From contig JAKAKU010000016.1 in assembly GCA_021824385.1 (NCBI GenBank), positions 1-12,146 on the forward strand: a stretch of 12,146 nucleotides of DNA. The letters are read 5' to 3'. The notes below the pieces were generated by a model. That model was not told the origin of the DNA, made no database searches, and saw only the letters and a program-made list of their open reading frames with translations. Both the position numbers and the translations under genes were made by a program. Below, in pieces: positions 7,098 through 12,146 of the stretch (the first letter of the stretch is position 1; each line of letters starts with the position of its first letter). Source of the stretch: a bacterium. Lineage in GTDB: Bacteria; Patescibacteriota; Microgenomatia; UBA8517.

Positions 7098-9461
7098 CTA
7101 CAAATTCGACCGTCGTGCAATTTCTGCATCAACAAGTTTTACATCCCTACCATACTTAATTCGACTCATTTCAGTAATAATCTTTGCAATTTCTGGGTTT
7201 TTCTCTTTTTGGATTTCGTTATAATCCTTAGCAAGATTCATTGAAAATGGCAGCACTGGCTCGTTGTTAACGAGCGTTTTTATATACACATGGTATCGCT
7301 CAACATTTTGTAAATCTTCTTCTCCAAAGACAGGGGTAAATTGGCGTGCAAGATAATTTGCATCATCCACTCCAACCCGATAACTAATAATTGTTCCAAC
7401 GTTTCCAAATATGGCATCTTTAATTTCCTGGTCAATTTGGCCCACAAACTGATTGGCAACGATAAGGGACAATCGATATTTTCGAGCTTCAGACAATATT
7501 TGTGCAAAATCAGGTGTCGCAAAATTTTGGAATTCGTCGACATACAGATAAAAGTCACGGCGTTGACTTTCTGGAATATCACTTCTACTCATGGCGGCCA
7601 TGAGAATACGTGGAACCAAAATAAGACCCAAAAAGTTACTGTTCTCTTCTCCAAGTTCTCCTTTCGAAAGATTTACCAACAAAATTTTCCCATTATCCAT
7701 AATTTCCCGGAAGTTAAAGGAGCTTTGAGATTGTCCAATAAGATTACGAATCATTTTGTTCGTCACAAACCGACCAAATTTAGAAGTAATGTAGTCCAAG
7801 GTTTCTGACTTATGAAAGTCCGATGTTTGTGCAATCTGATCGGTCCAATACCGTCTCACGATTGGATCGGTCACTTTTGGTAATAGTTCCTTTACGTAAT
7901 TTACATCAGTTAACACGCGCATCACTTCAATAAAAGTATTTCCTTCTTCGCTCATAACAGTGAGCATTGCGTTTCTAACAGCATGTTCAAACCGAGGCCC
8001 TACAATACCTGTTTTGTAAGGGTCGAACAATTTGTACATGAGGTTAATCACACTTGTGGTTACGAAATGCTTTTGATCTTCAGTTTTTGCCTCAAGTAGA
8101 TTGAGTCCCATTGGACGAGCAACATCACTCGGCCTAAAATAAATAACGTCCTCAGCTCTCTCTGGTGGAATAAACTCCAAGAGCTCTTCAACGGCGTCCC
8201 CATGTGGGTCCATAAAGCAGAGGCCCTTACCATTTCGTATATCTTGCTTCATAAGTTCAAGCAAAAATTTCGATTTACCTGTACCTGTCTTTCCAATAAT
8301 ATATGTGTGTCGAAGTCGGTCGGCGTCGCCTATGTAAATATTGCGTTTAACCCCACGAAATGAATTTTCACCAAGAAATAGTCCTTCAGACGGTATTTGT
8401 GCAGGCGCAGGAGCGCTTTTTGCTGTCAGCCAGAAAATATGAGGTGTTGTAATAAGTTTATTGGGAAAATGGAAAACAGTAGCTATTTCTTCAGAATTTA
8501 ATATTGATGGTCGGTTTCCGAATACATCAAACATCGGATGATATCGATAAATAAAGTCTTCAACAAAGGCAGATTTGCGACGTATTTTTCTCCCTCCAAA
8601 CCCATTGAACTCTCCTTCAAATTGAGAGAGAGCAGTAGAAATGTTGTCCAGGTGAACTTTGGCAGCTTCTTCAGTTTTGGCAACTACTACGACACGAAGC
8701 GAAATTTCAAACCCAGGTTTACTAATTTTGTTTTCAATGGCTTCAAGCGTTTTTGCAGAGGTTGAATATTTTGCCTGTTCAGGGTTGCTTTCTTGCTTTT
8801 TAGTGTTTGCAATAAATGCACTCCCCGCTGACTTCCACGAGTTGTCGACAGGAGACATGAGAAGCTGAATCGATGCTCCCTCGCCCTCTCCCATTTTGGC
8901 TAGAGCAGAAGTGAGAGATGCAAGCGGATCGGTGGGAAGTTCTTTAAATGTTTTGAGTGGATAAAAGCTTTCCTTTTTTAGTTGAAACGATTTATATGAT
9001 ACTTTTCCATCCGAAGTAAAGATGTTGTATTCTGGGACCTCTATAATATCTGCTTCTGGATAGGCGCCATGAATTTGTTTTTCGACTAAGTCTTGTAGAT
9101 TTTTGTATGTCCATACATAGAAGCGAATATCTTCACTCTTAGCAACAATTTCAAAGGAAATTTGCGGTTGTGTACTAAATCGCTGTTTCCATCCTCCCTT
9201 TTTTACGGCATAGAGCGAGGCAAAAACTTGCTCCATGGCATCAATTTTAACCTCATTACTCCTTGAGACAGCAACCTGCAGTAAAACCGAATTTAAAGAC
9301 CGTTTCTCACGATCTCGGAAGCGATAAAAATACATTCCCACCCATGCTCCAATAATGAGCGCCATAAACAGTATCGAAAAAACTGCAATTCCAATAAAAA
9401 TAGCTCCGAAGTCAATTCCGAGTACACTTGCAGGATTATTGAGGGGCAATGGTGTATTCAT
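7098..9461 (-). CDS. Membrane-anchored TraD/VirD4/VirB4-like P-loop ATPase (type IV secretion-type)
   Basis: A 787-residue ATPase of the FtsK/HerA-TraD superfamily. A single membrane helix near the N-terminus (about 19-46, IFIGIAVFSILFMALIIGAWVG core) is followed by basic FRDREKRS, so the bulk is cytosolic. Residues about 55-350 form a region typical of these CPR proteins. The motor domain has Walker A GKTGTGKS (390-397), MDPHGD (417-422), Walker B FYLYVDE (637-643), and VANQF (668-672), the sensor-like motif of TraD/VirD4 coupling proteins. It probably moves DNA or protein across the envelope, or powers pili or DNA uptake; no relaxase or other secretion gene is in the window to say which. 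The ATG lies 6 bases after the stop of the Pro/Gln-rich protein, so the two form an operon. Complete, with no frameshift. Confidence 0.88.
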   Translation of the reverse strand: MNTPLPLNNPASVLGIDFGAIFIGIAVFSILFMALIIGAWVGMYFYRFRDREKRSLNSVLLQVAVSRSNEVKIDAMEQVFASLYAVKKGGWKQRFSTQPQISFEIVAKSEDIRFYVWTYKNLQDLVEKQIHGAYPEADIIEVPEYNIFTSDGKVSYKSFQLKKESFYPLKTFKELPTDPLASLTSALAKMGEGEGASIQLLMSPVDNSWKSAGSAFIANTKKQESNPEQAKYSTSAKTLEAIENKISKPGFEISLRVVVVAKTEEAAKVHLDNISTALSQFEGEFNGFGGRKIRRKSAFVEDFIYRYHPMFDVFGNRPSILNSEEIATVFHFPNKLITTPHIFWLTAKSAPAPAQIPSEGLFLGENSFRGVKRNIYIGDADRLRHTYIIGKTGTGKSKFLLELMKQDIRNGKGLCFMDPHGDAVEELLEFIPPERAEDVIYFRPSDVARPMGLNLLEAKTEDQKHFVTTSVINLMYKLFDPYKTGIVGPRFEHAVRNAMLTVMSEEGNTFIEVMRVLTDVNYVKELLPKVTDPIVRRYWTDQIAQTSDFHKSETLDYITSKFGRFVTNKMIRNLIGQSQSSFNFREIMDNGKILLVNLSKGELGEENSNFLGLILVPRILMAAMSRSDIPESQRRDFYLYVDEFQNFATPDFAQILSEARKYRLSLIVANQFVGQIDQEIKDAIFGNVGTIISYRVGVDDANYLARQFTPVFGEEDLQNVERYHVYIKTLVNNEPVLPFSMNLAKDYNEIQKEKNPEIAKIITEMSRIKYGRDVKLVDAEIARRSNL

Positions 9462-9467
9462 AGGTGT

Positions 9468-9836
9468 TTACTTCTTTCCAAAAATGACCCGCCAACCTTT
9501 AGAAAATGCTTTTCCCACTTCGCGGAGCCAGTACATATCAAGCCAGGTGACTGCTAGGTTAGACGGACCATGTGCGCCTTTTTCGAGTTCCTTTTCATCC
9601 GCTGCCAACTCAACAGGGACCAGCACTGCAGGGGTTGTATCTTCCACGACAACTTGCGTTGGTACAGGGGTAGCAATTACTTGATTGTTGTCATTTACCA
9701 CAGCCTGAGGTGCTTGTGGAGGTGCCGATACGCCAAGCTGCTGTTGAGTTTCCGGAACGATCGGCTGCTCAACTCTCGGCTGTACAACCTCCGGTTGCTG
9801 TGGTGGTTGCTCAGGTGTTAATTCAGGGGTACTCAT
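9468..9836 (-). CDS. Small Pro/Gln/Val-rich protein upstream of the secretion-type ATPase
   Basis: A 122-residue protein: a disordered proline/glutamine/valine-rich segment (about 1-75, many PxQ, QP and VVP repeats), a short acidic linker (ADEKELEKG, 79-87), and a compact C-terminus WLDMYWLREVGKAFSKGWRVIFGKK (98-122) that looks like an amphipathic, membrane-associating or docking helix. I do not recognise a named family. No signal peptide is seen. A longer frame would begin at 10028, but it would translate the antisense of the riboswitch, so the ATG at 9836 is chosen. A -10 box at 9848-9843 would start the RNA at or within a base or two of this ATG, suggesting a leaderless message. Its position 6 bases ahead of the ATPase suggests an accessory or adaptor role for it. 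Confidence 0.72.
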   Translation of the reverse strand: MSTPELTPEQPPQQPEVVQPRVEQPIVPETQQQLGVSAPPQAPQAVVNDNNQVIATPVPTQVVVEDTTPAVLVPVELAADEKELEKGAHGPSNLAVTWLDMYWLREVGKAFSKGWRVIFGKK

Positions 9837-9842
9837 AACATC

Positions 9843-9871
9843 ATTGTATATGCCTAGTTGCTCACGAGCAA
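9843..9871 (-). promoter_or_regulatory. Promoter for the Pro/Gln-rich protein-ATPase operon
   Basis: Minus strand TTGCTC (9871-9866), 17-base spacer, TACAAT (9848-9843). The predicted start falls at about 9836-9837, that is, on the ATG, so the RNA would be leaderless. An alternative -10, TATACA (9850-9845), would also leave almost no leader. Confidence 0.5.
9858..9871. repeat. Perfect palindrome TTGCTC-AC-GAGCAA shared by two divergent promoters
   Basis: Six-base arms around AC. Each arm read outward acts as the -35 hexamer of one of the two divergent promoters (minus 9871-9843, plus 9858-9886), both with 17-base spacers. It may also be an operator for a dimeric regulator. Confidence 0.6.
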
Positions 9872-9886
9872 TGGAGATGGTACAAC
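9858..9886 (+). promoter_or_regulatory. Promoter for the riboswitch-controlled gene
   Basis: TTGCTC (9858-9863), 17-base spacer, TACAAC (9881-9886). Predicted start near 9893, a few bases before the P1-like stem of the riboswitch begins (9896). The -10 is a moderate match. Confidence 0.45.
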
Positions 9887-9895
9887 ATATTGAGT

Positions 9896-10004
9896 GATTG
9901 TGAATGCTCGCCACATTGGCGAGAAGGAAGTGGGTGGAAATCCCACGCTGTGCCGCAACGGTCAAAGCCCGAAAACTAGCAATCTCACCTACGCCATTCA
10001 GGCG
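9896..10004 (+). promoter_or_regulatory. Cobalamin (B12) riboswitch
   Basis: Elements of the cobalamin aptamer appear in order: P1 GATTG (9896-9900) with CAATC (9980-9984); hairpin CTCGCC-ACATT-GGCGAG (9907-9923); the AAGGAAG junction (9924-9930, cf. the conserved GGGAA); stem GTGGG/CCCAC around TGGAAAT (9930-9946, cf. GGTGAAAATCC); GCTGTGCCGCAACGGT (9947-9962, cf. the conserved CCCGCaACtGT); and a B12 box AAGCCCGAAAACTAGCAA (9965-9982) that fits 13 of 18 positions of the consensus RAGYCMGGAGACCKGCCD. A P13-like hairpin CGCC-ATTCA-GGCG follows (9992-10004), 24 bases before the ATG at 10029. CATTCA around its loop is complementary to TGAATG (9901-9906), a possible long-range contact. TTCTCG (10011-10016) can pair with CGAGAA (9920-9925), a possible alternative fold. 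Known members mostly repress when cobalamin binds. Neighbouring nrdJ and adenosyltransferase genes support the call. Confidence 0.85.
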
Positions 10005-10028
10005 AAGAAATTCTCGAGCAAGAAACAT

Positions 10029-11243
10029 ATGATAATTGAACGTGAAACTACTGATACTTCTTTTGCTTTACGTGGAACAGGAATGGACCTTCATGCTCAG
10101 ATGGAAATGATTCTGCAAACAAGAGTTGAGTCAAATAGTGTATCTGAATGGAAAGACGCAATTATTCAAAAAAACAATGCAGATCTCGAAGGGTTATATT
10201 TTGAATATCTTATCGAGTCCGGTGTTCTTCCATTTCATCTTCAGTTTTCAAACGGACGAGTGAGTTGTCCTGATTATGGCAACAAACCACTCCCAGATGT
10301 CGTTTCAAAGGCCGAACGCGAAGGATCTATTTACGAAAGCATACAAGCCATCGAAAATCGTCTTATACACTCAAAGGAGGAAGATTCGCATGTGTTGATT
10401 AGTCCCCCTGGTTGGTCTGGGTATCCGCACCCACATACCACGGCACAAATATACTATTATCAAAAAAAGGGCTCTGAGATACAAAGCATGACATTTGTTT
10501 CTCGAACTGCAACTCTTGAAGATTGTGAACGATTACAAAAATACCTAACCGGACAAACGAATGATGTAGTTTTATCAGAAAAGGAACGTATCCTCTCCCT
10601 CACTTCACAGCCGCTTTCATTCAAAGGGCTCTCTCCACATGACGTTGTTTCGCGTTTCGAAGCAGCCACGCAATCAAACCTTTCCGAAATGCATGAGCTT
10701 ATCGACCATCGGCCTGAAATACAAGCAGATGTAAAAGAGTGCATTCGAGACTTTGCCCATTTCATCGAATACGAAATTGATGATGACACACCAGAGTCAC
10801 TCGCGTTCATTGAAAAGATGTTTGGCAAAACTATTCTTGATATGCAATCAGTTTTAACAAGAGGAAGAAAACCACAAACGAAAGCGGAATATTACGACAG
10901 TTACAAAACGTTTTCAGAGCATGAAGGGTGCAATGGAGGTGGAACTATATATAGTCGCGGCCTCACTGAACAGTCAGAAGATGAGGAATTTCCAAATCGA
11001 GGAATTTGTGCGATGAAAAACAAGTGTATTAGTGAGAAAAAGGGAGAGGAACAAGCACTTGGACTTTGTATGATTTGTAAAACATGCGACCGGGCTTTTA
11101 GATCAGGAAAGACACTCGAAGAGATTGCGTTAATTGCAGAGGCAAAAGAAACTAAAAACAAAACAAAAGAAGTGGAAGCAGAAGGCACTTCCCTTTTTGC
11201 AAAAGCTGCATTGTCATTTATCGTGGCCTTGTTTGCAGGATAA
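10029..11243 (+). CDS. Unknown cysteine-rich protein with hydrophobic C-terminal tail, under B12 riboswitch
   Basis: A 404-residue protein I cannot assign to a family. Residues 1-295 look globular and cytosolic-type, with a notable SPPGWSGYPHPHT (125-137) and no signal peptide. A cysteine cluster follows: C301, C327, C333, C347, C350, C353 (CNGGG, CAMKNKC, CMICKTC), suggesting a zinc- or Fe-S-binding segment. After a K/E-rich stretch (366-386) comes a short hydrophobic tail (389-403, LFAKAALSFIVALFA), possibly a membrane anchor. Start choice: the frame is open upstream to 9894, but those 45 codons are the riboswitch, so the first ATG after it is used. No Shine-Dalgarno sequence is present; the 24 bases between P13 and ATG may be the control element. 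It converges on the adenosyltransferase gene with two bases between stops. Likely role, by context only: cobalamin capture, salvage or a B12-sparing function. Confidence 0.82.
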   Translation: MIIERETTDTSFALRGTGMDLHAQMEMILQTRVESNSVSEWKDAIIQKNNADLEGLYFEYLIESGVLPFHLQFSNGRVSCPDYGNKPLPDVVSKAEREGSIYESIQAIENRLIHSKEEDSHVLISPPGWSGYPHPHTTAQIYYYQKKGSEIQSMTFVSRTATLEDCERLQKYLTGQTNDVVLSEKERILSLTSQPLSFKGLSPHDVVSRFEAATQSNLSEMHELIDHRPEIQADVKECIRDFAHFIEYEIDDDTPESLAFIEKMFGKTILDMQSVLTRGRKPQTKAEYYDSYKTFSEHEGCNGGGTIYSRGLTEQSEDEEFPNRGICAMKNKCISEKKGEEQALGLCMICKTCDRAFRSGKTLEEIALIAEAKETKNKTKEVEAEGTSLFAKAALSFIVALFAG

Positions 11244-11245
11244 TA

Positions 11246-11791
11246 CTAAGATTTCTTCCCCATCCAAAGCGTTTCACTTTCTTTTGCTTTGCTATTTTCA
11301 GCACGAAATACCATAAACAAATAATCTGAGAGCCTGTTGAGGTATTTTAATACTTCAAGGGGTACTGCTTCTTTTTGAGAAAGGGCGACAACAGCCCGTT
11401 CTGCACGCCGAACAAGTGACCGTGCATACATAATATGAACTGCACTTTCCGTACCTTGTGGAAGTAAAAAATTCTTGAGTGGCGGAAGTGATTGTTCAAA
11501 CTCGTCAATTTGTTTTTCAAGCAGTTGAACAGATGACTCGTGTATTTGAAGTGGAGCTTTTGATAGTATTCCCCCGATTTGAAATAACTCCGTTTGAATT
11601 TGTGATATGAAAGATTTCGTCTTTCGCACTTTGGTGTAAAAACTGGCAATTCCCAAATAACTATTTGCTTCATCGATTGAGCCAATGGCCTCTATTCGTA
11701 GAGAAGACTTAGAAACTCTGTTTCTTTTTTTTGGATCTAGTTCGAAGAGTGAAGTTTTTCCCCGGTCACCGGTTTTGGTATAGATAGACAT
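11246..11791 (-). CDS. pduO: PduO-type cob(I)alamin adenosyltransferase
   Basis: Transfers adenosyl from ATP to cob(I)alamin to make adenosylcobalamin (coenzyme B12). The 181-residue protein has the family marks in order: SIYTKTGDRGKTSLF (2-16, ATP-binding N-terminus), EAIGSIDEANSYLG (about 32-45), NFLLPQG...ARSLVRRAERAVV (about 104-132, with the conserved RRAER), and YLNRLSDYLF (about 145-154, whose N and D belong to the active site). Its length is normal. A GTG two codons upstream is in frame, but the ATG at 11791 is favoured: its A is the last base of the nrdJ stop (TGATG), so it is translationally coupled to nrdJ. Its product is the cofactor that NrdJ needs. It is not the unrelated CobA/BtuR or EutT type. 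Confidence 0.95.
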   Translation of the reverse strand: MSIYTKTGDRGKTSLFELDPKKRNRVSKSSLRIEAIGSIDEANSYLGIASFYTKVRKTKSFISQIQTELFQIGGILSKAPLQIHESSVQLLEKQIDEFEQSLPPLKNFLLPQGTESAVHIMYARSLVRRAERAVVALSQKEAVPLEVLKYLNRLSDYLFMVFRAENSKAKESETLWMGKKS

Positions 11792-12146
11792 CAGCACTCA
11801 CTGTGGCCACAGGTGTAACACTTGGCACAGCCTTCTTCAAAAACTAAGGTGTGACTGCCACATTCTGGGCACAAGTCTGCCTTTTGTTTTCCACTTAAAG
11901 GAAGTTCAGCTTGCATCATCATGCCGCCACTCGACTGCGCATCTGAAGGTGTTCCTCCAAAAAGAGACTGTTTCACTTCTCCATTGGTAGTGTGACCGTT
12001 TGATAATGCAACCCCATTCCCGTTGCTTACGCCATTTGGTACTGGCAAGTTCATGTTTTGTCGAAATCCGTAATGAGTGGCAATCGCAATACCAATGGCA
12101 TCAGGCAAACTCATAATACGATTTGCTCCAAACCCTACTGATCGTC
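11791..12146 (-). CDS. nrdJ: B12-dependent class II ribonucleotide reductase, C-terminal end (cut by window edge)
   Basis: The last 117 complete codons of NrdJ, which reduces ribonucleotides to deoxyribonucleotides with adenosylcobalamin as radical source; the catalytic barrel is beyond the right edge. The frame is open to the end of the window. Visible: SLPDAIGIAIATHYG, typical of the part after the barrel, then a linker rich in N, G and S, then the zinc-ribbon-like end LCPECGSHTLVFEEGCAKCYTCGHSEC-stop, whose cysteines (CPEC, CAKCYTC, terminal C) are characteristic of this NrdJ subfamily and include the pair thought to re-reduce the active site. It is followed by the adenosyltransferase with a one-base overlap. 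Its promoter and any riboswitch of its own would lie outside the window. Confidence 0.93.
   Translation of the reverse strand, partial: RSVGFGANRIMSLPDAIGIAIATHYGFRQNMNLPVPNGVSNGNGVALSNGHTTNGEVKQSLFGGTPSDAQSSGGMMMQAELPLSGKQKADLCPECGSHTLVFEEGCAKCYTCGHSEC

Follow-up and report, generated by a model that had tools for sequence, protein, structure and literature searches.

Cobalamin riboswitches of the families RF00174 and RF01689 (AdoCbl-II, after adenosylcobalamin, AdoCbl), which belong to clan CL00101, often repress B12-independent isozymes, and in this class of riboswitch a kissing loop hides an element at the ribosome-binding site upon ligand binding. Class II ribonucleotide reductase (RNR) carries a Cys-rich domain (CRD) which, in the sections of Loderer et al. 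(2017; PMC5704485) that describe it, has six Cys, binds zinc and relays electrons into the active site; in NrdJa+b this domain is encoded by a separate gene. Among the matches listed in searches of the open-licence literature in PubMed Central, no title or abstract opening describes a riboswitch protein from the candidate phyla radiation (CPR), and the riboswitches of PMC10409787 are of the thiamine type. Here we describe a cobalamin riboswitch and the gene that follows it, which we call X, in a stretch of 12,146 nucleotides (the window: positions 1 to 12,146 of contig JAKAKU010000016.1, assembly GCA_021824385.1) from a bacterium of the Patescibacteriota (Microgenomatia; UBA8517). X is a real, previously unnamed and fast-diverging family tied to the cobalamin riboswitch; its membership of an AdoCbl-supply regulon is well supported, and its biochemical and corrinoid role, as well as its location, are what we infer.

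An initial annotation, made from the letters of the window, had placed a B12 riboswitch ahead of X, and covariance search bears this out: the match reported by cmscan scores 35.7 bits, above the curated gathering score of 31.5 for RF00174 (E 3.9e-6), and is the single RF00174 match in the whole assembly of the window genome (926,600 bases, 68% complete). The overlapping RF01689 match, at 33.2 bits, falls under the gathering score of 36.5 and so is sub-threshold; the riboswitch of a same-genus relative reaches 39.3 bits. When ten chosen riboswitches were aligned (that of the window and nine from relatives), the GGAA junction, the CCGCAAC B12 box and the core were invariant columns, so that the junction and box singled out at the outset are indeed common to the set, whereas the GGTGGAAATCC stretch, singled out with them, is common only in part. 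The call rests on the covariance model; minimum-free-energy folding of the window riboswitch is not distinctive by itself (z -1.17). The transcription start that had been predicted just upstream is not supported: in a consensus scan, 9650-11300 yielded no promoter-like site on the plus strand ahead of the riboswitch. The 449-amino-acid (aa) open reading frame (ORF) begins inside the riboswitch, at 9894, and the likely start of X is the ATG at 10029, which gives a protein of 404 aa.

The linkage of X to the riboswitch was followed in 95 related genomes, with riboswitch matches counted at E 0.001 per genome and the ORFs behind them read by eye (genomes, lineages, contigs and loci are cited below by our G, f, C and L labels). 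A profile derived from the window protein, and built blind to riboswitches, hits 15 of the 95; in 14 of these the hit is preceded, on its own strand, by a match to a cobalamin riboswitch, the exception being G086. Five of those 14 riboswitch matches (G032, G035, G047, G049 and G053) score below the curated cut-off; X of G053 stands third among the genes behind its riboswitch. Counted from the RNA, 59 genomes have a riboswitch match (47 by RF00174, 50 by RF01689), 42 of them over the curated cut-off. X lies behind the riboswitch in 49 of the 59 (35 of the 42), starting no more than 30 nt past the match, or within it, in 40 of 48 cases. A second survey took a short-form profile, built from proteins found behind riboswitches, to 281 genomes of the class, 84 of which had a match. 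Sixty matches came from 58 genomes that were not among the first 95 and had no part in the making of the profile. Of the 60, 48 are preceded on their own strand, at a distance of no more than 2 kb, by a riboswitch match, which scores over the curated cut-off in 40. At about one riboswitch per megabase, we estimate that chance would account for well under one of those 48.

That these proteins form one family is indicated by profiles built without a given member or its close relatives, which recover 47 of 48 members; with the last 75 residues removed 45 are still recovered, and reversed controls give 0 of 48. The family diverges far faster than NrdJ, with identities of 44% for X against 76% for NrdJ between G008 and G048, and of 26% against 70% between G008 and G024. 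From the databases phmmer returned 20 proteins including X itself, none functionally named, and two named relatives come from one Woesebacteria and one Roizmanbacteria assembly. A Pfam search with X, taken as far as E 1, gave no match; with 46 members it gave none above cut-off, the weak ones (best E 0.0015) being zinc-finger types for the most part and one HypA. An NCBIfam search of 28 members gave one weak match (E 0.0045), and neither sequence search nor Foldseek brought up a relative of solved structure. The view that the gene is not a known B12 enzyme or transporter therefore agrees with the Pfam and NCBIfam searches, which returned no such family. In one genome (G002; contig C33, L011 and L088) X is split into two frames, through assembly error or decay, and it is intact in the genus mate G038 (L012).

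Of 48 family members, 31 have the motif GAGCARG or GTGCARG no more than 40 nt ahead of their assigned start codon, as against 0.9% in shuffles, and in the window GAGCAAG lies at -13. A fixed ribosome-site element adjoining the aptamer points to translational control, and the element is likely to be the translational expression platform of the riboswitch. AdoCbl, the presumed ligand, would then switch X off through the translation of its own mRNA.

Both pduO, which encodes a PduO-type cobalamin adenosyltransferase, and nrdJ, for the B12-dependent RNR, are common in these genomes: pduO is present in 76 of 95 and nrdJ is over its curated cut-off in 78. Because they are so widespread, their co-occurrence with X by itself says little, and adjacency says more. 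X neighbours pduO in lineages f1, f4, f8, f19, f21, f24, f30 and f31. The order nrdJ, riboswitch, pduO, X is found in seven genomes, six of f19 and one of f31 (G177, G132, G141, G122, G275, G253 and G107), where PF01923 identified pduO throughout, while nrdJ was recognised through Pfam in G177 and by eye in the other six; as there is a single riboswitch per stretch, one switch appears to cover both pduO and X. The order is nrdJ, pduO, riboswitch, X in G061, G072, G074, G077, G081, G091 and G057, and X is tail-to-tail with pduO in G000, G001 and G035. In the window the tail-to-tail arrangement with nrdJ-pduO is as first described, with the ends of X and pduO 2 nt apart and pduO overlapping the end of nrdJ; the main nrdJ match of the genome (TIGR02504) is on a separate contig (C137, the window being C135). 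In many lineages, then, homologues of X have nrdJ and pduO as neighbours, besides being linked to the riboswitch. The two outcomes named as refuting the initial annotation, lack of a significant covariance match and homologues that never occur with the riboswitch or with B12 genes, were both checked and did not come about (Table 1 gives the positions in the window).

Table 1. Positions of the riboswitch, X and neighbouring features in the window
Feature	Position	Strand	Evidence or remark
Cobalamin riboswitch aptamer	9881-9998	+	RF00174; sub-threshold RF01689 at 9918-9981; conserved core in 10-riboswitch alignment
Small hairpin CGCC-ATTCA-GGCG, after riboswitch core	9992-10004	+	Sequence and folding
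GAGCAAG element overlapping ribosome-binding region	10016-10022	+	13 nt before ATG 10029
Gene X (404 aa), outside the known families	10029-11243	+	ORF from ATG 10029; no Pfam match
PAS-like alpha/beta core of X (residues ~64-160; SPPGWSG at 125-131)	10218-10508	+	Predicted structure
GCNGGG with Cys301, just ahead of low-confidence loop	10926-10943	+	Cys invariant in alignments A1 and A2, matching place in A3
Cys cluster, predicted zinc ribbon (residues 328-353; C328, C333, C347, C350, C353)	11010-11087	+	Sequence
C-terminal helix with hydrophobic end, in window clade (window, G001, G035)	11115-11237	+	Model; hydropathy 1.35-1.79
pduO-type cobalamin adenosyltransferase	11246-11797	-	PF01923 E 3e-50; tail-to-tail with X
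nrdJ C-terminal end with Cys-rich tail	11791-12146 (window edge)	-	Main nrdJ match elsewhere

In an AlphaFold2 model of the window protein (24 sequences; predicted local distance difference test, pLDDT, 83; predicted template-modelling score, pTM, 0.62) a PAS-like core is followed by a helical part; the stretch behind GCNGGG is a disordered loop (residues 303-322 are under pLDDT 50), and there is a Cys cluster. A short member was modelled as well, with less confidence (11 sequences, pLDDT 67), and shows the same core. PAS-type chains are the commonest rows in the fold comparison of both models, with Z at best 5.4, and a fold of the core like that of PAS domains, for instance in VqmA, is provisionally, if weakly, indicated by them. 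In the first alignment of X the SPPGWSG-type, GCNGGG and C-terminal CxxC positions are invariant, and C333, C347, C350 and C353 are so in alignment A2; among 28 short members (alignment A3) the only invariant positions are five Cys, of which the ribbon accounts for four and an SC[GP]-type motif for the fifth, and a sixth Cys near the end is nearly invariant. The cluster would probably bind zinc. A Cys lies within the last four residues in 35 of 48 members, with a spacing that differs from that of the NrdJ CRD, and in 63 of 85 X-profile hits, against 11 of 194 other ORFs without a zinc-ribbon tail (ORFs of at least 200 codons in the fetched loci); the window protein itself has 51 residues beyond its last Cys. 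By hydropathy, with no signal-peptide predictor applied, 47 of 48 members lack a membrane span, the remaining one passing the cut-off at its C-terminus, and the G090 protein has a moderately hydrophobic N-terminus. By eye, several types of C-terminal zinc ribbon turn up more than once in alignment A3, attached to N-terminal domains that differ widely, which looks like an exchange of tails between members of the family.

X is not the sole gene behind these riboswitches. In ten of the genomes (G003, G004, G006, G010, G014, G019, G053, G061, G073 and G087) a DUF4430 (PF14478) protein and a small membrane protein follow one; five of the ten also have X, and in four of those (G010, G014, G019 and G061) a second riboswitch precedes it. 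The membrane partner was named by eye as DUF6580-like, a relative in G472 matching DUF6580, and the two are likely to be a CPR B12 import pair. A long ORF outside the X family (470-657 aa) follows the riboswitch in G063, G066, G087 and G094, in G087 besides the DUF4430 pair; pduO lies just upstream of this locus in G063, G087 and G094. In two further riboswitch genomes none of these follows: in G041 the match is at a contig edge, and in G071 there is no clear ORF nearby, its strong RF00174 match (49 bits; G071:C13:22639-22791, L008 and L070) having no ORF of at least 100 aa starting within the next 1.5 kb. In a wider sample of the phylum RF01689 was found in 68 of 379 genomes, 18 of them in the window's own class, and at the 17 loci read outside that class what follows is a DUF4430-like gene, a gene for class III RNR, another ORF of unknown kind or, at three of them, a protein with a faint likeness to X. 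At two loci, L235 (G477) and L240 (G138), the proteins that follow have repeats which by eye resemble the transcobalamin alpha domain, that of G138 giving only weak, sub-threshold cyclase/TED matches in Pfam. The riboswitch marks a small B12 regulon, comprising an import-type pair, a B12-independent RNR in some other classes and, most often, X.

How might X serve this regulon? The reading that we favour, and to which we would give about an even chance, is that X is a cytosolic factor in AdoCbl supply, made of a PAS-like domain and a Cys-rich, putatively zinc-binding tail, which is controlled by the riboswitch and acts beside PduO for NrdJ. X would handle, reduce or deliver the corrinoid from which PduO makes AdoCbl for the reductase. 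It is tempting to go further and to see in X the founder of a new intracellular class of corrinoid-handling proteins, capturing and reductively activating scavenged corrinoid for PduO and NrdJ, its use in CPR replacing the known cobalamin reductases and chaperones; we offer this stronger version tentatively. The initial annotation had spoken of a candidate novel salvage factor; the association of the homologues with the riboswitch and with nrdJ and pduO supports it in part, the salvage role itself being a reasonable extrapolation.

Several observations sit less comfortably with a supply factor. No homology was found between X and any corrinoid protein. The X proteins of the window genome and of a genome from the same genus are 46% identical, against 86% for NrdJ, an unexpected pattern for a catalytic partner. 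Not every member has the ribbon, as two longer ones (G069 and G090) contain no CxxC. G083, 96% complete, has the riboswitch and X with no match to nrdJ or pduO, and no pduO match was found in X-bearing G058, G065, G082 and G090. No riboswitch was detected for 12 of the 60 X matches in the further genomes, nor for X of G086 and G016, and riboswitch matches are under the curated cut-offs in 17 of the 59 genomes and in 8 of the 48 further cases. Finally, inherited gene order may account in part for the nearness of X to nrdJ-pduO, since a small Pro-rich gene that adjoins X has been conserved too. In the window that gene and one for a TraG/VirD4-like ATPase occupy 7098-9836 on the minus strand, and genes that resemble them by eye adjoin or follow X in G035 (L032), G061, G072, G122, G132, G171, G253, G265 and G292, which suggests an old conserved block.

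It is also conceivable, although we think it unlikely, that X acts on NrdJ itself, as a redox, assembly or regulatory partner whose Cys/zinc tail works like the CRD or is descended from it, and which would be in greater demand when AdoCbl runs short. What prompted a comparison with the CRD was the terminal Cys of X, together with the link to nrdJ. Against the NrdJ tail of the distant G472 the X profile gives a faint match (E 3e-4) over an SCPD motif and the ribbon, and X may be akin to the CRD or may work like it. Against the tails of 31 local NrdJ proteins, however, profile comparison is not significant (probability 17-25%, P ~1e-3), and only the ribbon aligns convincingly. Most of the local tails printed have a Cys array of their own, those printed at length show SLPD at the place of the SC[GP]-type Cys of X, and the presence of X in G083, which lacks an nrdJ match, is hard to square with a partner of NrdJ.

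A location outside the cytosol, with X capturing B12 as an extracellular or translocated protein, perhaps exported by adjoining machinery like that of type IV secretion systems, strikes us as improbable. The TraG/VirD4-like ATPase gene (7098-9461) two genes from X, the Pro-rich gene, alike by eye and kept beside X in several lineages, the fast divergence of X and the hydrophobic C-terminal helix of the window clade would all fit such a role; but hydropathy, used without a signal-peptide predictor, shows no membrane span in 47 of the 48 members, Cys-rich zinc ribbons suit a reducing cytosol, and the DUF4430 and membrane-protein pair is already behind other riboswitches in some of these genomes. 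Least probable of all is that X takes the place of a B12-dependent activity without itself needing B12, which might be supposed from the AdoCbl-II riboswitch ahead of B12-independent class III RNR in other CPR classes (L234 in G381, PF13597/NRDD E 2e-89; L245 in G491, by eye), for X has no match to RNR and no strong one to another enzyme family, neither sequence search nor Foldseek gave a solved relative, and it has a riboswitch in common with pduO, a B12-using gene.

With nrdJ over the cut-off in most of the related genomes, most of these bacteria would depend on AdoCbl for DNA synthesis, and in our judgement little is known of how such CPR bacteria get B12. If X is a factor in AdoCbl supply, an unannotated and very fast-evolving family becomes a testable B12 protein, with PduO and NrdJ as likely partners and AdoCbl shortage as the condition under which to look. 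More generally, riboswitches can pinpoint genes whose proteins have diverged almost past recognition.

Set beside known systems, X shares with the PduO-type adenosyltransferase (PF01923) its neighbourhood and, in the seven genomes, its riboswitch, but has no sequence match to it and is a separate protein. With the DUF4430 and DUF6580/ECF-like pair, presumably concerned with B12 import, it has in common a position behind cobalamin riboswitches in these genomes; the pair are membrane or surface proteins by eye, whereas X looks cytosolic. Like the NrdJ CRD and the stand-alone NrdJb, as far as the sections of Loderer et al. (2017; PMC5704485) cited above describe them, X has a zinc-ribbon-like C-terminal Cys array, usually with a Cys near the end, and nrdJ as a neighbour; it differs in an upstream domain for which no NrdJ counterpart was found, and in being under a riboswitch. 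That riboswitch, for its part, resembles the known cases of RF00174 and RF01689 in an RF00174 score over the cut-off, a conserved core and a start codon just downstream, and departs from them in its controlled gene, which belongs to an unnamed family rather than to those known for transport, synthesis or isozymes.
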